From contig NZ_CP032695.1 of assembly GCF_003627755.1 (NCBI RefSeq), positions 1,302,001 to 1,366,000 on the forward strand: 64,000 nt of DNA. Direction: 5' to 3'. This DNA comes from Rhizobium jaguaris. Its GTDB lineage: Bacteria; Pseudomonadota; Alphaproteobacteria; Rhizobiales; Rhizobiaceae. This document shows, one piece after another, positions 16,117-25,162 of the stretch (position 1 is its first letter; every line of letters starts with the position of its first letter). The position numbers were made by a program, and so were the translations under genes. The notes under the pieces were generated by a model. That model was not told where the DNA came from, made no database searches, and saw nothing but the letters and a program-made list of their open reading frames with translations.

Positions 16117-18774
16117 TTATTCAGCCGCAGTCGCTAGGCATCCATCGATGATCCCACGGATTTCGGCGCGACAGGAGCCGCAATTGGTCCCAGCGTTCAG
16201 CGCTTTGCCGACGGCTTCGACGCTGTGGCAGCCATTGCGAACCGCACTGACGATCTGGTTGACGCCGACGCCGAAACACGAGCAAACGGTTGCACCGGGA
16301 TCAGGCGTATTGGTGCCCGGCCGGCCCGCGACGAGGGCAAAGCGTTTGCGCATATTGCTGTGCAATGCGGAGAGTTGCGCGATCGCCCAATTGCGGGCGA
16401 CGGCCACCGGCTGGCGGGCCAGAAACAGCGCCGCGAGCAGCCTGTCTCCGTCGAAGAACGCCAGACGCAGATCCCCGGAGGTTTGATCGGCATAGCCGAG
16501 CGGTTCGACATCTGGAGGAATGTCGAACGTCGCGTGACACCATTCCGCCCAATCTTCCACGGCATCGTCGAATGCCAGTTCCATCCGCCATCCGCCGTCG
16601 GCCTTGGCGAGAGCCCAATAGGCGGCTTCCAGTTGCTGCGGCTTTGCCACGGAAACGGCAAAGCCATAATGCGATGCCTTGAAAGGACGTGCTGCGACGG
16701 CGACATTTTTCGAAGCCGGCTGACCGGAAAACGGATCGGTCACGGGCGCGACGACGGTATCGATGCGCGCCTTTGCGGCGAAGCTGTCATTCCAATGCAT
16801 CGGCACGAACAGGCTGCTGCGCGCCTGCCGTTCCGTCACCAAGGCCCGAACGATGACCTTGCCTTGCGGGCTTTCGATCTCGATCAGGCTGGCGTCGCTG
16901 ACGCCGATTTCGATCGCATCGCGGGGATGGATTTCGGCGAAGGACTCGGCAATATGTGCCGACAGCCGGGCGCTTTTGCCGGTGCGGGTCATCGTGTGCC
17001 ACTGATCGCGGATACGGCCCGTATTGAGCGTGAACGGGAATTCCGCAGTCGTGCGATCTGAAACGGGCATCTTCACGGGCACGAAACGGGCCTTGCCGTC
17101 GGCATGAAAAAACCCGCCTTCGGCGAAGAAGCGTGTCGTCTGTAGCGCCGTTCCCGCAGGCTGCGGCCATTGGAACGGCGAAAGCGTTTCATAGTCTTCG
17201 GCCGTAATCTGCGCGCAGGCGCCGATATCGAAATCCCGGCTGCCGTTATTTTCAAAGCTGGAAAGGGCGGCATGTTCGGCAAAAATGCCGGCCGGCGAGT
17301 GGAAGGAGAAGGCCTCAGTGAACCCCATCCGACGACCCACTTCGGCCATCTGCCACCAGTCCGGTTTCGCCTCGCCGGGAGAGGGGAGAAACCCGCGCTG
17401 CCGGGAAATCCGACGCTCGGAATTGGTGACGGTGCCGTCCTTCTCGGCCCAGCCGGTGGAGGGCAGCAACACATCCGCATGTCGTGTCGTATCCGTCTGT
17501 CCCAGGACATCGGAAACGACGACGAAGGGACAGGCCTTGATTGCCGCTTCGACCGCATCGGCATCCGGCATCGAAACCACCGGATTGGTCGCCATGATCC
17601 ACAGGGCTTTGATGCGGCCATCGGCAACGGCGCGAAACATGTCGACGGCCTTGAGCCCCGGCCGCGCGGCGATGACGGGGGACTTCCAGAAGCGCTGCAC
17701 CCGATCCCGATCGTCGGCGTTTTCAATCGCCATGTGGGCGGCAAGCATGTTGGCGAGCCCGCCGACCTCGCGTCCGCCCATGGCATTGGGTTGACCGGTC
17801 AAGGAGAAAGGCCCCATGCCGGGGCGACCGATGCGTCCCGTGGCGAGATGGCAGTTGAGGATGGCGTTGACCTTGTCGGTGCCGGAGGACGATTGGTTGA
17901 CACCCTGGCTATAGCAAGTCACGACCTTTTCCGTCGTCTCGAACAGACGGAAGAATTCGCGCAGTTGCATCGCCGGCAGACCGGTCTTGTCGAGCAGGTC
18001 GCTGAAGCTCAGCGCCGAGGCTTCGGCGAAAACGTCCGAGAAGCCCTCGGTATGAGTCGCGATGAAATTCTGGTCGATGGCGGAGCTCTGGGCCAGACGG
18101 GCAAGCAGGCCCGTGAACAGCGCGACATCGCCATCCGGACGGATTGCCAGATGCAGGTCGGCGATATCGGAGGTCATCGTCCGGCGCGGATCGATGACGA
18201 CTACCTTCATTCCAGGGCGCTCGGCCTTGGCGGCCGCGAGGCGCTGGTAGAGGACCGGGTGACACCAGGCGAGATTGGAGCCGGTCAGGATCACCAGATC
18301 GGCCAGCTCGATGTCCTCATAGGTGCCGGGTACCGTGTCCGAACCGAAGGCGCGGCGGTGGCCCGCAACCGAGGACGACATGCAGAGGCGCGAATTGGTA
18401 TCGATGTTGGCTGAGCCGATAAAGCCCTTCATCAGCTTGTTGGCGAGATAATAATCTTCGGTCAGAAGCTGGCCGGAGACATAGAAGGCAACCGAATCTG
18501 GACCATGCGCAGCCACGGTTTCGGAAAAACGGTTCGCCACCAGATCGAGGGCGTCGTCCCAGCTCGCGCGTTCACCACCGACTTCCGGATAGAGAAGCCG
18601 ACCATCAAGATCGATCGTCTCCGCCAGCGCCGATCCCTTGGAACAGAGCCGCCCGTAATTGGAGGGATGATCGGGATCGCCTTTGACGGAAACCTTGCCG
18701 TCATCATCGACGCTGGCGATGACGCCGCAGCCGACGCCGCAATAGGGGCAGGTCGTTTTGGTCTCAGCGGACAT
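16117..18774 (-). CDS. nasA: Assimilatory nitrate reductase, molybdopterin catalytic subunit
   Basis: Reduces nitrate to nitrite in the cytoplasm; 885 residues. The N-terminal [4Fe-4S] site uses C9, C12, C16 and C44. The molybdopterin oxidoreductase domain follows ('YVSGQLLTEDYYLANKLMKG', 'LTGSNLAWCHPVL', 'TGQPNAMGGREVGG') and the dinucleotide-binding domain near residue 570-700. A C-terminal BFD-like [2Fe-2S] domain ('VCSCFGVG' and 'GTNCGSCRAEI') completes it. This is the NasA/NasC type that takes electrons through its own BFD domain. It is the last gene of narK-nirB-nirD-nasA; its start lies 46 bp after nirD. Confidence 0.95.
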   Translation of the reverse strand: MSAETKTTCPYCGVGCGVIASVDDDGKVSVKGDPDHPSNYGRLCSKGSALAETIDLDGRLLYPEVGGERASWDDALDLVANRFSETVAAHGPDSVAFYVSGQLLTEDYYLANKLMKGFIGSANIDTNSRLCMSSSVAGHRRAFGSDTVPGTYEDIELADLVILTGSNLAWCHPVLYQRLAAAKAERPGMKVVVIDPRRTMTSDIADLHLAIRPDGDVALFTGLLARLAQSSAIDQNFIATHTEGFSDVFAEASALSFSDLLDKTGLPAMQLREFFRLFETTEKVVTCYSQGVNQSSSGTDKVNAILNCHLATGRIGRPGMGPFSLTGQPNAMGGREVGGLANMLAAHMAIENADDRDRVQRFWKSPVIAARPGLKAVDMFRAVADGRIKALWIMATNPVVSMPDADAVEAAIKACPFVVVSDVLGQTDTTRHADVLLPSTGWAEKDGTVTNSERRISRQRGFLPSPGEAKPDWWQMAEVGRRMGFTEAFSFHSPAGIFAEHAALSSFENNGSRDFDIGACAQITAEDYETLSPFQWPQPAGTALQTTRFFAEGGFFHADGKARFVPVKMPVSDRTTAEFPFTLNTGRIRDQWHTMTRTGKSARLSAHIAESFAEIHPRDAIEIGVSDASLIEIESPQGKVIVRALVTERQARSSLFVPMHWNDSFAAKARIDTVVAPVTDPFSGQPASKNVAVAARPFKASHYGFAVSVAKPQQLEAAYWALAKADGGWRMELAFDDAVEDWAEWCHATFDIPPDVEPLGYADQTSGDLRLAFFDGDRLLAALFLARQPVAVARNWAIAQLSALHSNMRKRFALVAGRPGTNTPDPGATVCSCFGVGVNQIVSAVRNGCHSVEAVGKALNAGTNCGSCRAEIRGIIDGCLATAAE

Positions 18775-18820: not shown

Positions 18821-19165
18821 CTATTCCGCCGCCATCAGGAGGCTATCGAGCCTGATCGACAGCATTCCGTCCTCATTGCGCACCGGGATGGTCCGAACCG
18901 AACCTTCATCTGCTCCGAGTGCCTTGCCGGTCTCAAGCGAGATGACCCAATTGTGCAGCGGGCAGGTGACGGCCGCGCCATGCACGATCCCTTGCGAAAG
19001 CGGTCCGCCCTTGTGCGGGCAATGGTCCTCGATAGCGAAGACTTCGTTTTCGGCGGTCCGGAAGACTGCGATCTTGCCCTGCGGGGTCTTCACGCAGCGC
19101 GCGCCGCGCAGGGGGATATCCGAAATGTCGCCGATTGGATGCCAGTTTTCATTGGGCCAGTTCAT
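18821..19165 (-). CDS. nirD: Nitrite reductase small subunit with Rieske ligands
   Basis: The small partner of NirB, 114 residues. It keeps a complete Rieske [2Fe-2S] ligand set: C49 and H51 in 'DHCPHKGG', C68 and H71 in 'TCPLHNW'. The enterobacterial NirD has lost these residues, so here the subunit probably carries a cluster, as in other alphaproteobacterial NirD. ATG 19165 is preceded by AAGGAG at six bases. It begins 10 bases after the nirB stop and is translated as part of the same transcript. Confidence 0.93.
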   Translation of the reverse strand: MNWPNENWHPIGDISDIPLRGARCVKTPQGKIAVFRTAENEVFAIEDHCPHKGGPLSQGIVHGAAVTCPLHNWVISLETGKALGADEGSVRTIPVRNEDGMLSIRLDSLLMAAE

Positions 19166-19175
19166 GTCCATCTCC

Positions 19176-21626
19176 TTACTCGGCGGCCTGCGGGTAGCCG
19201 ATCGTTGCCATCGGCTTGAACTCATGCTTGTCTTTGCCGGAGACGCGCTCGGACCAGGGATCGACCTGGGCGAATTTCTGGCTGAAGACGAAGCGCTCGT
19301 AATAAGCCTTGCGCTTTTCACCGTCTTCCATGATCTGGCGGCGGATCTCGTCGAGGCCGATGCGCTTGGCCCATTTGTAGATGCGCTCGAGATAGCGGGC
19401 CTGCTCGCGATACATCTGCGTCAGCGCCACGATATGCTCCAGCGCCTCGTCCTCGGTCTTGACGAGGCCGAGTACCTCCGTGCCCTTGATGTCGAGACCG
19501 GCAGCACCTGCGAAATGGATTTCGAAACCGCTGTCGACACAGATGACGCCGATGTCCTTGCAGGTCGCCTCGGCGCAATTGCGCGGACAGCCGGAAACCG
19601 CCATCTTAAGCTTTGCCGGGGTCCAAGAGCCCCACATGAACTTCTCGATGCGAATGCCGAGGCCGGTGGAATCCTGCGTGCCGAAGCGGCACCAGTCGGA
19701 GCCGACGCAGGTCTTCACCGTGCGCAGGCCCTTGGCATAGGCCTGGCCGGAGATGAAGCCCGCCTTGCCGAGATCGGCCCAGACGGCGGGCAGGTCCTCC
19801 TTCTGCACGCCCAGCAGGTCGATGCGCTGGCCGCCGGTCACCTTGACCATCGGAATCTCGAATTTGTCGACAACATCGGCGATGGCGCGCAGTTCGTTCG
19901 AACTGGTTACGCCACCCCACATGCGCGGCACGACCGAATAGGTGCCATCCTTCTGAATATTGGCGTGAACACGCTCGTTGATGAAACGGGACTGATAGTC
20001 GTCGGCATATTCATCCGGCCAGTCGCAGACGAGGTAATAGTTCAACGCCGGCCGGCATTTCGCGCAGCCGCAGGACGTCTTCCATTCAAGTTCCTGCATA
20101 ACAGCAGGAATTGATTTCAACCCTTTGGCTTTTATGAGTCTTCTGACGTCGTCATGCCCAAGCTCTGTGCAGGCGCACATCGGCTGTACGGCCTTGGGAT
20201 TGTAGCTGTCGCCAAGCGTGATCGACATCAGTTGTTCAACGAGCCCCGTGCAGGAGCCGCACGAGGCGGACGCCTTGGTATGGGCGCGCACGTCGTCTAG
20301 GGACGTCAGCCCCTTGTCGGCGATTGTCGAGGTGATTTTGCCCTTACAAACGCCGTTGCAGCCGCAGATTTCCGCATCATCCGGCAAGGCTGCAACGGCC
20401 GCCATAGGGTCCAGCGGGGACCCTCCCTGGTAGGCCTGGCCGAAGATGAGCGTCTCGCGCATCTCCGAAATATCGGTCGCCTTCTTCTTCAGATCGTTGA
20501 ACCATGCGCCATCAGCCGTCTCACCATAAAGCACGGTGCCGATGATGCGATTATCCTTGAGGATCACACGCTTGTAGACGCCGGCTGCGGCGTCACGCAG
20601 CACGATTTCCTCGCGATCGTCGCCGTCCGCGAAGTCGCCGATCGAAAAGAGGTCGATGCCGGTGACCTTGAGCTTGGTTGGCGTGTCGGAATGCACGAAG
20701 CCGGCAGAGGTGTCGCCGGCAAGCTGCGCGGCGGCAACGCGCGCCATTTCATAGAGCGGCGCCACCAGACCGTAGACCTGACCGCCCACTTCGGCGCATT
20801 CGCCTAGCGCATAGATATCGCCGTCGGAGGTGCCCATACCGGCGTCGACGACGATGCCTCTGTTGACCGCGAGGCCGGCATCCTTCGCAAGACCGGCGCT
20901 CGGGCGGATGCCGGCCGCCATAACCACCAGCGTCGCAGGCACGATGGTGCCGTCGGCCAATTCCACACCTTCGACTTTGCCGTCGCCGACGATCGCCTTG
21001 GTATTGGCTTTGGTGATGACCTTGATGCCGCGCTCCTCCACGGCCTTTTGCAGAAGGTAGCCTGCAGCCGGATCGAGTTGGCGCTCCATCAGCGTCGGCA
21101 TGACGTGCAGCACGGTAACGTCCATGCCGCGCGAACTAAGGCCTGCCGCAGCTTCGAGACCAAGCAGACCGCCGCCGATGACGACCGCCTTGGCGCGGGA
21201 TTGCGCGGCAAGCAGCATGGCGTTGACGTCGTCGAGATCGCGATAGGTCAGGACGCCCGGCAAATCATTTCCGGGAACGGGAATGATGAAGGGCACGGAA
21301 CCGGTGGCGATCACCAGCTTGTCGTAGCTCTCGGTGACGCCATGATCCGACGACACGGTCTTGGCGGCGCGATCGATGGCGACGATCCTGTGACCCTTGT
21401 ACAAGGTGATGTTGTTCTTGATGTACCAGCCATCGCCGTGGATGATGATCTGTTCATAGTCCTTTTCGCCGGAAAGGACTGGCGACAGCATGATGCGGTC
21501 GTAATTGACGCGTGGCTCGGCGTTGAAGATCGTCACTTCATACTGGCCGGGCGCCTTTTCGAGGAGGTGTTCCAGCATTCGGCCGGGCGCCATGCCGTTG
21601 CCGATGATGACAAGTTTCTGGGTCAT
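19176..21626 (-). CDS. nirB: Assimilatory NADH nitrite reductase, large subunit
   Basis: Six-electron reduction of nitrite to ammonium, 816 residues. Order: FAD/NAD(P)H Rossmann domains ('VIIGNGMAPGRML' at the N-terminus, second 'VVIGGGLLGLEAA'), two BFD-like [2Fe-2S] segments ('CGCNGVCKGKI' and 'CGSCTGLVEQL'; 'MCACTELG' and 'CGCAKCRPALNYY'), ferredoxin-like half, then the siroheme/[4Fe-4S] site 'CVGSDWCRFG' with 'SGCPRNCAEA'. All expected cysteines are present. ATG 21626 follows GGAG. It lies 18 bases downstream of the transporter and is followed directly by nirD. Confidence 0.96.
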   Translation of the reverse strand: MTQKLVIIGNGMAPGRMLEHLLEKAPGQYEVTIFNAEPRVNYDRIMLSPVLSGEKDYEQIIIHGDGWYIKNNITLYKGHRIVAIDRAAKTVSSDHGVTESYDKLVIATGSVPFIIPVPGNDLPGVLTYRDLDDVNAMLLAAQSRAKAVVIGGGLLGLEAAAGLSSRGMDVTVLHVMPTLMERQLDPAAGYLLQKAVEERGIKVITKANTKAIVGDGKVEGVELADGTIVPATLVVMAAGIRPSAGLAKDAGLAVNRGIVVDAGMGTSDGDIYALGECAEVGGQVYGLVAPLYEMARVAAAQLAGDTSAGFVHSDTPTKLKVTGIDLFSIGDFADGDDREEIVLRDAAAGVYKRVILKDNRIIGTVLYGETADGAWFNDLKKKATDISEMRETLIFGQAYQGGSPLDPMAAVAALPDDAEICGCNGVCKGKITSTIADKGLTSLDDVRAHTKASASCGSCTGLVEQLMSITLGDSYNPKAVQPMCACTELGHDDVRRLIKAKGLKSIPAVMQELEWKTSCGCAKCRPALNYYLVCDWPDEYADDYQSRFINERVHANIQKDGTYSVVPRMWGGVTSSNELRAIADVVDKFEIPMVKVTGGQRIDLLGVQKEDLPAVWADLGKAGFISGQAYAKGLRTVKTCVGSDWCRFGTQDSTGLGIRIEKFMWGSWTPAKLKMAVSGCPRNCAEATCKDIGVICVDSGFEIHFAGAAGLDIKGTEVLGLVKTEDEALEHIVALTQMYREQARYLERIYKWAKRIGLDEIRRQIMEDGEKRKAYYERFVFSQKFAQVDPWSERVSGKDKHEFKPMATIGYPQAAE

Positions 21627-21644: not shown

Positions 21645-22916
21645 TTATTGGGCAAAAACGCTGGCGTTTGCGCTCGATGCGCTGTTGCGCTGCAATTGCC
21701 GGATGGAGAGATGCATCCATACCAGCGAGATCGTGACGATCGCGAAGAGCAGCATGAAACAGCTCGACCAAAGGCCGGTCATGTCCTTGAGCAGGCCGAA
21801 GGCGATCGGCAGGACGAAGCCGCCAAGGCCGCCCATCATGCCGACGATACCGCCAACCGCGCCGACAGCGCCGGGATAATAGGCGGGAATGTGCTTGTAG
21901 ACGGCCGCCTTGCCGAGGCTCATGAAGAAGCCAAGGATGAAGATGACGACGATGAAGATAGCCGGCGTGATGCCGAAGGCTGGGCCTGCTGCCGCGGCGG
22001 CCGGCAGCGAAAGGATTAGGGTTGTGAGCGCCGACACCGCCAGCATCGTGTACATGACGCTTCGGGCGCCCTTCTTGTCGGAAACCATGCCGCCGAAGGC
22101 GCGGAAGATGCTGCCCGGGATCGAATAGGCGGCAGCGACCATGCCGGCAGTCTCGAGGTTGAAGCCGTAGACGCCGACCAGATAACGGGGCAGCCAGAGC
22201 GACAGGGCGACGAAGCCGCCGAACGCGAAGAAGTAATAGAGCGAGAAGCGCCAGACCTGCACGTTCTTCAACGGCGCGAATTCCTGCAAAAGGCTCTTGG
22301 ATGCGCCGCCGCCGTTGCGACGAGCGCGGAAAGCCGGATCATCGGTCGTGGTGAACCAGAAGACGATCGCCATGGCGGCAAGCACCAGCGCCCAGATCTC
22401 GGCAACGGCCTGCCAGCCCCAGGCGAGGAGGACGAAGGGGGCTGCGAACTTGGTCACCGCGGCACCGACATTGCCGGCGCCGAAGATGCCAAGCGCCGTT
22501 CCCTGCTTCTCCGGCGGGAAGAAGGGCGAGACGTAGGCAACACCAACCGCGAATGAGCCGCCAGCAAGGCCGACACCGAGGCCGGCGATCAGCATCTGCG
22601 TATAGGTGTGGGCATAGGAGAGCAGGAAGGTCGCCAATGCGGCGGCCAGCATGGTGAGCGTGTAGACGAGACGGCCGCCATAGCGGGTGGTCCAGATGCC
22701 GAGAACGATGCGGACGATCGAACCGGTCAGGACCGGGGTGCCAACGAGCAAGCCGAACTCGGCCTCGTTCAGCCCGAGCTCCTGTTTGATACGAATGCCG
22801 ATGATCGCGAAGATCGTCCAGACCGCAAAACAGATCGTGAATGCGAGTGTCGATATCCACAGTGCGCGTTGTGGTGCATCAGCAGGCAATGGCGGCGTTT
22901 GGTCAAAAGCGGGCAT
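21645..22916 (-). CDS. narK: Nitrate/nitrite MFS transporter
   Basis: An inner-membrane transporter of 423 residues with about twelve helices, in the NarK/NasA nitrate-nitrite porter family. The family signatures are 'IGIRIKQELGLNEAEFGLL', 'FGAGNVGAAVTKF' and the second-half 'GAVGAVGGIVGMMGGLGGF' glycine-rich helix. It brings nitrate into the cell for NasA and may expel nitrite. It is the first structural gene after the sigma-54 promoter and the ANTAR leader. Downstream is nirB after 18 bases, so the operon is narK-nirB-nirD-nasA. Confidence 0.92.
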   Translation of the reverse strand: MPAFDQTPPLPADAPQRALWISTLAFTICFAVWTIFAIIGIRIKQELGLNEAEFGLLVGTPVLTGSIVRIVLGIWTTRYGGRLVYTLTMLAAALATFLLSYAHTYTQMLIAGLGVGLAGGSFAVGVAYVSPFFPPEKQGTALGIFGAGNVGAAVTKFAAPFVLLAWGWQAVAEIWALVLAAMAIVFWFTTTDDPAFRARRNGGGASKSLLQEFAPLKNVQVWRFSLYYFFAFGGFVALSLWLPRYLVGVYGFNLETAGMVAAAYSIPGSIFRAFGGMVSDKKGARSVMYTMLAVSALTTLILSLPAAAAAGPAFGITPAIFIVVIFILGFFMSLGKAAVYKHIPAYYPGAVGAVGGIVGMMGGLGGFVLPIAFGLLKDMTGLWSSCFMLLFAIVTISLVWMHLSIRQLQRNSASSANASVFAQ

Positions 22917-22962: not shown

Positions 22963-23030
22963 AAAACAAAAAAGCTGCTGGTCAGGGTTCGCGCACGCTG
23001 AAAGCGTGTTCGTCAATCCTGATCAGCAGC
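22963..23030 (-). terminator. Leader intrinsic terminator of the nas operon
   Basis: On the minus strand, upstream of narK, a 13-bp stem with one mismatch (GCTGCTGATCAGG with CCTGACCAGCAGC), an inner CACGCT-TTC-AGCGTG hairpin, then TTTTTTGTTTT. It sits before the first structural gene, so it must be read through for expression. Its 5' arm overlaps the second ANTAR hairpin (23023-23039), so the two structures exclude each other. Confidence 0.85.
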
Positions 23031-23059
23031 TTTGCTTGAGACGCCCCACGTTGGACGCC
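23023..23059 (-). promoter_or_regulatory. Double hexaloop ANTAR-binding RNA (NasT target)
   Basis: Two adjacent RNA hairpins on the nas leader. P1 (23040-23059): stem GGCGTCC/GGGCGTC (with two wobble pairs) and hexaloop AACGTG. P2 (23023-23039): stem TC(A)AGC/GCTGA with one bulge, and hexaloop AAAGCT. Both loops fit the A-N-N-G-N-N rule for ANTAR antiterminators. P2 uses bases of the terminator 5' arm, so NasT binding should release the terminator. The protein pair NasS-NasT is encoded immediately upstream. Confidence 0.8.
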
Positions 23060-23094
23060 AATGGGTGAGCCTTGTCGGCCTCATCAATAAGAAA

Positions 23095-23110
23095 GCAAGC
23101 GGCGTGCCAA
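23095..23110 (-). promoter_or_regulatory. Sigma-54 (-24/-12) promoter of the nas operon
   Basis: The minus strand reads TTGGCACG-CCGC-TTGCT, an essentially perfect RpoN -24/-12 element. Transcription should start near 23085, giving a leader of about 170 nt that contains the ANTAR hairpins and terminator. A perfect inverted repeat GTTATTG-N3-CAATAAC (23161-23177) and a GGTGCA half-site (23210-23215) lie upstream, where NtrC or another activator might bind. Confidence 0.8.
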
Positions 23111-23234: not shown

Positions 23235-24461
23235 TCAGTCGCCTTTTGCCGCCCTCTGCGCTTCGATATAGGCATCGATCTTATCCGGATCGAACAGGCC
23301 ACCATCGAAGAAGCCATCAGGGCCGAGCGTCAGGCTGGCGCCGGTGGAACCAACAGGCGTTTCCACGCGAAGAGCGCCTTCGACCTTGGCGCTGGCGCCG
23401 GGCAGGGGCACGCCAAGCGGCTGCAATGCCGTCCGGTATATGTCCGGCCTGTAGGTGTTGCGGGCAATGGTCTCGTTGCCTTCGTCGTGGACGACCTGTC
23501 CCCAACGCACCATTTGCGTATAGAACCACAGGGCATGGCTTTTCCACGGGAAGGTTGCCGCCTTGCCGCGGGGAACGAAGAAGTCCTTGACACTCGTGAT
23601 CTGGCCGCCGCCCACCTGCAGATCGCCGGAAAGCGCCGGCAATAGCCAATCGACGGGGCGGCCGATATAGGCCGGCTTGGCGAGCGTCGACGCCAAAGTT
23701 TCCCTGTTCTGCGGATCGGAGCACCAGATAGCCGAGCGGTACAAGGCGCGCAGAAGTGCGGCCATCGCGTCAGGATGATCGTCAGCCCAGCCGGCATTGG
23801 CGCCGAGCACTTTTTCCGGGCTGGATTTCCAGATCGCCGCCTTGACCGTTGCGATATGGCCTTTGCCGCTGACGACACCCGCCGTATTCCAGGGCTCACC
23901 GACACAATATCCGTCGATCTGGCCGGCACCGAGCGCATCCGGCATTTCCGGCGGTGGCAGGATGATGATCTCGATGTCGCGATCTGGATCTATGCCGCTG
24001 GCCGCAAGCCAATAGCGCAGTTCGTAATTGTGCCCGGAATGGGGATGGACGACGGCAAAACGCAGCGGGCGTCCCGGGCGGCCGACGACGACCTTATGAA
24101 GGGCTTTGCCGTTGCGACCGGCATCGAGGTCATCGCTTGCGCCGGCAGCGGCCATTTCGGTCCAAAGCGCTGACGAAACCGTCACCGCATTTCCGCCGAG
24201 ACCGAGCGCCATCGGCACGATCATCTTCGGTGCAAGCGGTGTCAGCCCAAGATTGCAGGCAATCGGCATCGGAGCGAGCATATGCGCGACATTGTAACGG
24301 CTGACCGCAAGCCGGTCGCGAATATTGGCCCAGGAGACCTCTCGCACCAACCTGAGGTCGATCGCCTCGGCCTCGGCGAAACCCTTTTCCTTGGCGATGA
24401 CGAGCAGCGCGCTGTCGAGGAGGGGCAGGAACCCGGCAACGATTTCGTGGTTCTGCGTCAT
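23235..24461 (-). CDS. nasS: NasS nitrate/nitrite sensor (NrtA/CmpA family)
   Basis: A cytoplasmic nitrate-binding protein of 408 residues. It has the fold and length of periplasmic NrtA/CmpA binding proteins ('AGFLPLLDSALLVIAKEKGF', 'VVHPHSGHNYELRYWLAASG', 'GYCVGEPWNTAGV') but no signal peptide. That is the mark of NasS, which holds NasT when nitrate is absent and releases it when nitrate binds. ATG 24461 follows GGGAGA and overlaps the nasT stop by the ATGA arrangement, so the two are made in step. It is separated from narK by the regulatory leader. Confidence 0.92.
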   Translation of the reverse strand: MTQNHEIVAGFLPLLDSALLVIAKEKGFAEAEAIDLRLVREVSWANIRDRLAVSRYNVAHMLAPMPIACNLGLTPLAPKMIVPMALGLGGNAVTVSSALWTEMAAAGASDDLDAGRNGKALHKVVVGRPGRPLRFAVVHPHSGHNYELRYWLAASGIDPDRDIEIIILPPPEMPDALGAGQIDGYCVGEPWNTAGVVSGKGHIATVKAAIWKSSPEKVLGANAGWADDHPDAMAALLRALYRSAIWCSDPQNRETLASTLAKPAYIGRPVDWLLPALSGDLQVGGGQITSVKDFFVPRGKAATFPWKSHALWFYTQMVRWGQVVHDEGNETIARNTYRPDIYRTALQPLGVPLPGASAKVEGALRVETPVGSTGASLTLGPDGFFDGGLFDPDKIDAYIEAQRAAKGD

Positions 24462-25060
24462 ACGTTTTCTCCCGGATCGAGCAGGCCGATCGCCGTTACC
24501 AGACTTTGCGCGATGTCGATGATCTTGCGGTTCTGGTTCATGGCCGTCTTGCGCATCAGCGCATAGGCCATTTCTTCCGAAATGCCCCGTGATTTCATCA
24601 GCAGGCCCTTGGCGCGGTCGATCACCTTGCGATTTTCGAGTTCGCCTCGGGTCTCTTCGAGTTCGCGATTAAGGCGCGCGAATGCATTGAAGCGGCTGAT
24701 GGCCATTTTCAGGATCGGACGTACGCGTTCCTGCTTCAATCCGTCGACGATATAGGCAGAAACACCGGCATCGACAGCCGCTTCGATCGAGGCTTCGTCC
24801 GATCTGTCGACGAACATGGCAATCGGCCGCTTCACGGAGCGCGAGAGCTGAAACATGTTTTCGAGCATGTCTCGATTGGGATTTTCCAGATCGATGACGA
24901 TCACATCCGGATTGATCTCGCTGATCCTGCGGGCGATGCCGTTGATATCATGAACGATCGTGACGTTCTCGTATCCGGCCTCGCGCAATCCGGCCTCGAT
25001 GATCGACGCGCGAATGCGGTTCTCGTCTATGACCAACACGGCAAGGGTATGAGATTTCAT
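24458..25060 (-). CDS. nasT: NasT ANTAR antiterminator response regulator
   Basis: An RNA-binding antiterminator of 200 residues. The first 120 residues are a receiver-like domain with Asp57 in 'VIVIDLENP', then a short coiled coil ('RLNRELEETRGELENRK'). The C-terminal ANTAR domain follows: 'VIDRAKGLLMKSRGISEEMAYALMRKTAM'. It binds paired hexaloop hairpins and prevents transcription termination. Such hairpins lie in the narK leader. ATG 25060 gives the usual family length; the stop overlaps the nasS start. Regulation is through NasS rather than phosphorylation. Confidence 0.93.
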   Translation of the reverse strand: MKSHTLAVLVIDENRIRASIIEAGLREAGYENVTIVHDINGIARRISEINPDVIVIDLENPNRDMLENMFQLSRSVKRPIAMFVDRSDEASIEAAVDAGVSAYIVDGLKQERVRPILKMAISRFNAFARLNRELEETRGELENRKVIDRAKGLLMKSRGISEEMAYALMRKTAMNQNRKIIDIAQSLVTAIGLLDPGENV

Positions 25061-25162
25061 TGTCGCATATCGCCTCTGGCCCAAGCTCACAGGCTGAAAC
25101 AACGCTCAACCGCCATAGCCGCCGTCTGCTTCCTTACGATCGGTTCGCCGCAATCGCAAGGC

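Follow-up and report, generated by a model that had tools for sequence, protein, structure and literature searches.

A well-supported case of a NasT-responsive ANTAR attenuator before the nas operon of Rhizobium jaguaris

Introduction

What does the DNA between nasS and narK of Rhizobium jaguaris do, and might it decide whether the operon that begins with narK is transcribed? The question arises from a window of 64,000 nucleotides, the whole stretch of DNA analysed, in which a first-pass annotation placed an ANTAR antitermination leader before the nas operon. Support for that proposal comes from the structure of the leader, the overlap between one of its hairpins and a terminator, covariation among relatives and co-occurrence with nasS. 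The leader very probably attenuates transcription of the nas operon in response to NasT, with sigma54-type initiation followed by nitrate-gated antitermination through NasS-NasT. The mechanism is already known; the leader is a fresh, well-supported case of a NasT-responsive ANTAR attenuator. It provides a clean rhizobial example of two successive gates, a likely sigma54 one for nitrogen status at initiation and one for nitrate at elongation, next to nasTS, and the conservation of the canonical leader supplies a comparative set.

Gene neighbourhood and leader layout

The genome comprises 8.03 Mb in 4 contigs; among named relatives, Rhizobium sp. BK313 comes nearest by its NasS (93%). The features of the locus, in the direction of transcription, are as follows.

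24458..25102, minus strand: nasT, receiver plus ANTAR protein of 214 aa (PF03861 72.8 bits, PF00072 38.7 bits)
23235..24461, minus strand: nasS, NMT1-like protein of 408 aa (PF13379 235.8 bits), overlapping the end of nasT
23095..23109, minus strand: sigma54-type promoter TGGCAC-N5-TTGC (GG 23108-23107, GC 23096-23095; score 19/19)
23066..23083, minus strand: small GC-rich hairpin UGAG-G-CC, loop GACAA, GGCUCA (MFE fold), at the predicted 5' end of the transcript
23040..23059, minus strand: P1 hairpin, hexaloop AACGTG with A1 and G4 (sequence and covariation)
23025..23036, minus strand: P2 antiterminator hairpin, hexaloop AAAGCT with A1 and G4 (sequence and covariation)
22971..23033, minus strand: intrinsic terminator stem, 5' arm 23033-23018 (from the P2 loop), 3' arm 22986-22971
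22963..22973, minus strand: U-tract TTTTTTGTTTT (sequence)
21645..22916, minus strand: narK, NarK-family nitrate/nitrite MFS transporter (TIGR00886 212.6 bits, below the curated cut-off of 311.7)
19176..21626, minus strand: nirB, assimilatory nitrite reductase large subunit (TIGR02374 896.1 bits, above cut-off)
18821..19321, minus strand: nirD, nitrite reductase small subunit (TIGR02378 110.5 bits, residues 59-157)
16117..18774, minus strand: nasA, assimilatory nitrate reductase (molybdopterin oxidoreductase domains and Fer2_BFD)

The gene order is thus nasT-nasS-leader-narK-nirB-nirD-nasA, which confirms the first-pass placement of the leader before narK-nirB-nirD-nasA; the matches to PF03861, PF00072 and PF13379 likewise bear out its assignment of NasT, an ANTAR protein, and NasS just upstream. 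The ANTAR domain of NasT scores above the Pfam cut-off. As expected of a NasS-NasT system, an ANTAR NasT and an NMT1-like NasS are encoded by overlapping genes beside assimilatory nitrate and nitrite genes. NasS is presumably the nitrate/nitrite sensor, a role taken from the literature. The true start of nirD is probably further inside the annotated open reading frame. The assignment of nasA comes partly from gene order, because its best NCBIfam matches fall below their cut-offs.

On the minus strand, between the end of nasS at 23235 and the start of narK at 22916, the order of elements is sigma54-type element, small GC hairpin, P1, P2, terminator and U-tract. The dual-hexaloop region with the terminator, read directly from the sequence, spans 23085-22963. 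P1 consists of the arms GGCGTCC (23059-23053) and GGGCGTC (23046-23040) around the loop at 23052-23047, with seven pairs, two of them G-U. P2 is shorter, with three pairs between AGC (23036-23034) and GCT (23027-23025) around the loop at 23033-23028. The linker between the two hairpins is 3 nt, and the loops start 19 nt apart. The terminator, whose 5' arm begins with the first base of the P2 loop, forms 15 pairs with a single mismatch (A23023/C22981). Bases 23033-23025, which make up the loop and 3' arm of P2, are also the first nine bases of the terminator, and P2 and the terminator therefore cannot coexist. The minus-strand reading thus agrees with the first-pass description of two adjacent hairpins whose loops both fit A-N-N-G-N-N, the second overlapping the 5' arm of a terminator with a U-tract. 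Two six-base loops with A1 and G4, a short linker and a P2 exclusive with an intrinsic terminator are the hallmarks of an ANTAR-target dual hexaloop. In several same-genus leaders a GGCC-loop-GGCC hairpin was seen by eye, uncounted, at the position of the small hairpin 23066-23083.

Folding and chance

The 169-nt leader has a minimum free energy (MFE) of -67.6 kcal/mol (z -2.94; 2 of 200 shuffles were as good). For 23083-22963 the MFE structure, with P1 and the terminator, reaches -51.9 kcal/mol, versus -36.2 kcal/mol with P1 and P2 enforced. P2 by itself is weak, with its three pairs worth -2.2 kcal/mol. When the RNA is folded length by length, P2 has a probability of 0.93-0.98 while the 3' end lies between 23025 and 22983, with a dip to 0.37-0.68 at 23001-22995; it falls to 0.01 at 22977, and at 22971 the terminator stands at 1.00 and P2 at 0.00. 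The folding check proposed with the first-pass annotation thus shows P2 dominant until the 3' arm of the terminator emerges, and the terminator thereafter.

To gauge chance, a scanner was set to seek the complete arrangement, in which a pair of A-N-N-G-N-N hairpins with loop spacing of 17-24 nt is joined by a terminator starting in the P2 loop. It matches the stretch of 350 nt downstream of nasS and 0 of 2000 dinucleotide shuffles of that stretch. Among regions downstream of nasS it matches 69 of 110, and 0 of 2200 shuffles of them; the thresholds of the scanner were chosen after leaders had been seen. A looser scan without the terminator condition finds a match in 78 of the 110 regions. Eight of the 32 loci without a match are recovered at E<=0.001 by the canonical model described below, and 22 of the remaining 24 are nasS relatives at 40-46% identity. 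Rfam 15 gave no match in the leader at gathering scores. A sigma70/terminator scan detected nothing at the leader, probably because the loop of the terminator exceeds the length that the scan allows.

Conservation and covariation of canonical leaders

Removal of four duplicates (L035, L041, L056, L065) and the 32 match-less loci left 74 leaders from the loose scan. Of these, 59 were chosen by hand for the alignment of P1 and P2 (58 distinct sequences) and 37, mostly from closer relatives, for that of the terminator.

In the 58 distinct leaders, 96.7% of the P1/P2 cells are paired, versus at most 59.8% in slid controls, and five of the ten pairs change on both sides (four of seven in P1 alone). 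Four of five measures were reached by none of 500 shuffles; the fifth counts the pairs in which both sides have changed, and 29 shuffles reached its value of 5. P2 is paired in 100% of cells: its outer pair is G-C in 48 leaders, A-U in 8 and G-U in 2, and its two inner pairs are invariant. In 49 of 58 relatives a U-G wobble occupies the third pair below the P1 loop (23055/23044), possibly a recognition feature.

The terminator shows 92.4% of cells paired in the 37 leaders (slid controls at most 56.7%), with 10 of 16 pairs changed on both sides. In 26 of the 37 the position of the mismatch seen here, A23023/C22981, likewise does not pair, and the run of T after the terminator is invariant in the aligned relatives. 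Of most interest is the three-way position 23036/23025/22979, which is common to P2 and the terminator and reads G-C-G in 25 leaders, A-T-A in 9, G-T-G in 2 and G-C-T in 1 (n=37). This leader has A-T-A and a close relative (L033) has G-T-G. Such a three-way covarying position is strong evidence that P2 and the terminator are both under selection. The alignment of relatives, another check named by the first-pass annotation, thus shows the loops, the P2/terminator overlap and the terminator conserved with compensatory changes. A lack of conservation of the loops or the overlap, the outcome it had said would count against it, was looked for and not found.

Among matches to the canonical model, the P1 loop has A1 in 89/89 and G4 in 89/89, and the P2 loop has A1 in 86/89 and G4 in 89/89; these counts are partly circular, because most leaders were seeded by a scan that demands A1 and G4. 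The P2 loop starts with G in L009, L063 and L074 (GAAGCT, GATGCC and GACGCC, respectively), with G4 kept. These three leaders are natural exceptions to the A1 rule, and position 1 of P2 is not absolutely invariant. Loop starts are 17-24 nt apart in 72 leaders, a count that leaves out L045 and L084, for which the scan picked the wrong hairpin pair.

The best-surviving alternative, though very unlikely, is that the leader mainly affects the stability or translation of narK RNA and not termination. A further GC hairpin, GCGCGAC-GTT-GTCGCGC, lies between the U-tract and narK and could serve such a role, and an added translational layer has been proposed in Paracoccus (PMC5424462). The conserved exclusion of P2 and terminator, with its three-way covarying position, and the invariant T run argue against this and for attenuation by termination.

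A sigma54-type promoter and predicted nitrogen control

The motif TGGCAC-N5-TTGC, with GG and GC ten bases apart, is the sigma54 -24/-12 consensus. Positions 23109-23095 match it exactly, with the best possible score of 19/19. In the same 72 leaders (again without L045 and L084 and their wrongly picked pairs), a sigma54-type score of 17.5 or more occurs within 110 nt upstream of the hairpins in 56, versus 18 of 7200 mononucleotide shuffles; the other 16 leaders have no such score. The conserved element likely sets the 5' end of the leader, and its position predicts a +1 near 23083. Its presence also suggests nitrogen control at initiation, for which the predicted activator would be a regulator of nitrogen status of the NtrC type. 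A reading by eye for NtrC sites upstream gave nothing conserved enough to claim. An imperfect TTGACC/GGTCAA repeat, also noted there by eye, has a changed sequence in L174 and L177, two close relatives.

Occurrence across genomes

Two models were used. The canonical model, R1, was made from 59 leaders found by the scan requiring A1 and G4, some of which come from genomes of the family sample; the variant model, R2, was made from 18 same-genus genomes. In the family sample nasS is present in 59 of 121 genomes (E<=1e-60), and R1 matches at E<=1e-6 in 33 of the 121, all with nasS. Weaker R1 matches (1e-6 to 1e-3) occur in three genomes with nasS, beside the gene in two, and in five without it. 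A canonical or variant leader at E<=1e-6 is found in 48 of the 59 genomes with nasS versus 0 of the 62 without (Fisher p 2e-23), a statistic that is partly circular, given the leaders from which the two models were made. In a same-genus sample of 60 genomes, nasS is found in 58 and R1 in 39. The model searches score a fraction of their first-look candidates.

In the R. jaguaris genome itself R1 gives one strong match of 55.9 bits (E 4e-12), and the next scores 20.0 bits. This genome has one convincing NasT leader among the 150 of 9091 first-look candidates scored and the nine next-best sites read. Those nine were judged by eye to be chance matches, with no U-tract terminator after them. R2 has no match in the genome at E<=0.001.

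The genome also encodes a second ANTAR protein above the Pfam cut-off (G000:C1:4285667-4285822; L002, L123). Its AmiR-like gene adjoins an AmiC-like gene and an ABC-permease-like gene, both identified by eye, and a scan of both strands of 20 kb showed one weak candidate leader near it, at about L123:5800.

The R1 search of loci covered 84 of 112, in two collections that overlap (L007 and L043 are on one contig). At L043 (the same contig as L007), L039 and L090 the leader is found some 1.1-1.2 kb past nasS. Two leaders are present at each of eight loci, and at six of these (L044, L055, L060, L083, L085, L072) the second precedes a narK match. Since leaders stand far from nasS or before narK, the leader goes with the operon and not with nasS. 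In the same-genus R1 set a leader was seen before narK in L184 and L189 only. At L075 and L080, sub-threshold R1 matches (E 0.004-0.005) lie at the expected place; the match at L105 (E 3e-4), far from nasS, was judged to be chance.

Convincing extra canonical leaders are present at L182:2923-2969 (G134), L187:1912-1958 (G081), L067:1379-1425 and L068:1178-1224, the last two from Martelella. The next long open reading frame is close by in L067 and L187 and about 0.6 kb further in L182. By eye, from an N-terminal motif, the frames downstream of these four leaders look like nitrate reductases. In L067 and L187 nasT follows the reductase-like frame, and NasT may therefore lie in its own regulon. 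Extra R1 matches at L183, L186 and L188 are false, as convincing P1/P2 pairs with a terminator are absent there.

These distributions bear on a second alternative, namely that the hairpin and U-tract form a constitutive terminator of nasT-nasS and that the hexaloops are incidental. The hairpin is indeed directly downstream of nasS, and nasTS needs a terminator somewhere. Yet a perfect sigma54-type element separates nasS from the hairpins, so the terminator should be within the narK transcript. P1 and P2 are, moreover, conserved as hairpins, and leaders are also found before narK far from nasS and before the reductase-like frames of L182, L187 and L067. A constitutive terminator is extremely unlikely on this evidence. 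Just as improbable is real attenuation relieved by a factor other than NasT (Rho/NusA context or a second ANTAR protein): the genome does encode such a protein, beside the AmiC-like gene seen by eye, but leaders track nasS across genomes, this one adjoins nasTS, and the literature ties NasT to nas leaders (PMC3795266, PMC5424462, PMC4724949).

Proposed mechanism

The preferred reading, a NasT-responsive attenuator, would operate as follows. Sigma54 holoenzyme activated by an NtrC-type regulator would start the transcript near 23083. With no nitrate, NasS would hold NasT, the terminator 23033-22971 with its U-tract would form, and RNA polymerase would stop before narK. With nitrate or nitrite present, NasS would release NasT, and free NasT would bind the nascent RNA at P1 first and at P2 next. 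P2 held closed would make the 5' arm of the terminator unavailable, and the operon would be transcribed. Nitrate-dependent release of NasT, loop binding and actual termination are proposed from the literature on related systems; they would act through elements that were computed here, i.e., the promoter match, both hairpins, the terminator overlap, its conservation and covariation, and the link to nasS.

Variant architectures in relatives

Nineteen same-genus genomes have nasS and no R1 match. Eighteen were examined (L190-L207), and G163, which is fragmented with a partial nasS, was left out. In all 18 a variant leader is flanked by nasS on one side and, on the other, by a second nasS-like gene (30-36% identity), presumed to be nrtA, and all 18 have a sigma54 element. 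The layout is P1 with the loop AAYGGC, a spacer hairpin with a loop of 5-7 nt, and P2 of the form GAC[ATYGAC]GTC. The end of the P2 loop and the 3' arm pair with GCGGCGTT, and P2 lies inside the terminator in the fold of L193. The terminator ends in GCGGCG or GCGACG plus a run of T (L190-L207, L216-L225).

At E<=1e-6, R2 matches in 16 family genomes, all with nasS; weaker matches occur in six genomes with nasS and two without. At E<=0.001 it matches in 45 of the 60 same-genus genomes, in several of them beside the second nasS-like gene on a contig other than that of nasS. The variant set (n=28) consists of the 18 training leaders and the 10 best of 25 family matches (L216-L225, other genera); these leaders sit before the second nasS-like gene or after nasS. 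Loop starts are 46-51 nt apart in the 28, versus 17-24 nt in canonical leaders. A1 and G4 are present in both loops in 28/28, and positions 2 and 3 of the P2 loop vary; this count is less biased than the canonical one, as 18 leaders were chosen for having nasS and no canonical match and 10 by R2 score.

In the 10 non-training sequences four of six pairs of the spacer stem change on both sides, in an alignment fitted to the model, which leans the counts toward the structure. A U-tract was seen by eye in 10/10. Covariation is weaker in the 18 training leaders: for two of five measures, 86 and 136 of 500 shuffles do at least as well. Since the P2 stem is invariant in both sets, the variant P2 rests on its loop pattern and not on covariation.

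A third form was also found. Upstream of the canonical P1-P2 pair, near the 5' end of the leader, 18 of 29 same-genus R1 leaders (29 of the 39 R1-positive genomes, with a pattern chosen after the leaders had been read) have an extra A1/G4 hexaloop hairpin of the type GATC-AAYGGC-GATC, which resembles the variant P1. These are L154, L155, L157, L159-L167, L172, L173, L175, L179, L181 and L141. In leaders with the extra hexaloop, 73-169 nt separate the sigma54 element from the R1 start, compared with 26-33 nt otherwise.

In vitro, 20 nt added to the linker abolishes antitermination by EutV (PMC8934654), and a survey of actinobacteria accepted linkers of 2-25 nt in curation (PMC8164766). The longer linker of the variant holds a conserved folded hairpin, which suggests that folded distance is what counts. 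It seems somewhat likely that Rhizobiaceae NasT leaders have at least two architectures, the canonical one (19 nt here) and one of 46-51 nt with a covarying spacer hairpin, besides the extra-hexaloop form. If these work, the EutV linker limit would apply to unfolded length, and the variant would satisfy it by having its additional RNA folded; the hexaloops might be used in turn, in line with the successive-binding model. One question in the ANTAR field is why there are two hexaloops when one dimer contacts one at a time (PMC8934654). The variant is relevant to the way in which ANTAR dimers make use of a pair of hexaloops, and the spacer-hairpin and three-hexaloop forms are natural experiments that could help tell simultaneous from successive binding. 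Among the literature matches listed, no title announces a NasT leader of either form.

Comparison with known systems

An Azotobacter NasT leader is reportedly the subject of one study. Closer comparison is possible with four systems.

The nasA leader of Paracoccus denitrificans is alike in the order nasT-nasS-leader-nas operon, in the ANTAR protein NasT and in NtrBC control of nas genes (PMC3795266, PMC5424462). Its NasT binds the nasA leader, NasS-NasT dissociates with nitrate or nitrite (PMC3795266), and a cascade with NtrC first and NasT-mediated antitermination second has been described (PMC5424462). Of its leader hairpins, HI is needed for nitrate induction and HII may attenuate (PMC3795266, PMC5424462); a mutant in HI showed no growth on nitrate (PMC5424462). 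The R. jaguaris leader, set beside it at the level of layout, differs in its explicit hexaloops and P2/terminator overlap, with the sigma54 element directly 5'.

Klebsiella NasR and nasF likewise control an assimilatory nitrate operon through ANTAR antitermination gated by nitrate. NasR, however, is described as sensing nitrate by its own NIT domain, without a NasS partner (PMC3369931, PMC3795266, PMC5424462).

In Bradyrhizobium, a rhizobial NasT acts on leader hairpins and a narK-led operon is nitrate-induced via NasT in aerobic assimilation (PMC6759348, PMC4724949). A nasT mutant had undetectable narK-lacZ in aerobic growth (PMC4724949), and under denitrifying conditions narK rose without nasT (PMC6759348). 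Most NasT-affected genes there have no hairpin (PMC6759348). In that genus the narK operon lies apart from nasTS, and the targets of NasT are several (nosR, narK, nirA, coxS) (PMC6759348, PMC4724949), whereas here nasTS is linked and one convincing target was found among the candidates scored.

The EutV antiterminators of Enterococcus faecalis share two A1/G4 hexaloop hairpins with P2 inside the terminator (PMC3369931, PMC8934654), and EutV requires A1 and G4 of both hexaloops (PMC3369931). EutV is activated by phosphorylation, whereas the partner here is NasS (PMC3369931, PMC8934654). The loops of eutP start 24 nt apart (A29, A53), versus 19 nt here (PMC3369931). In the eut leaders the natural linker length is 5-12 nt, and induction falls at 3 or 14 nt; as a counterpoint to the likeness, the linker here is 3 nt, a length at which the altered eutP leader showed lowered induction (PMC3369931).
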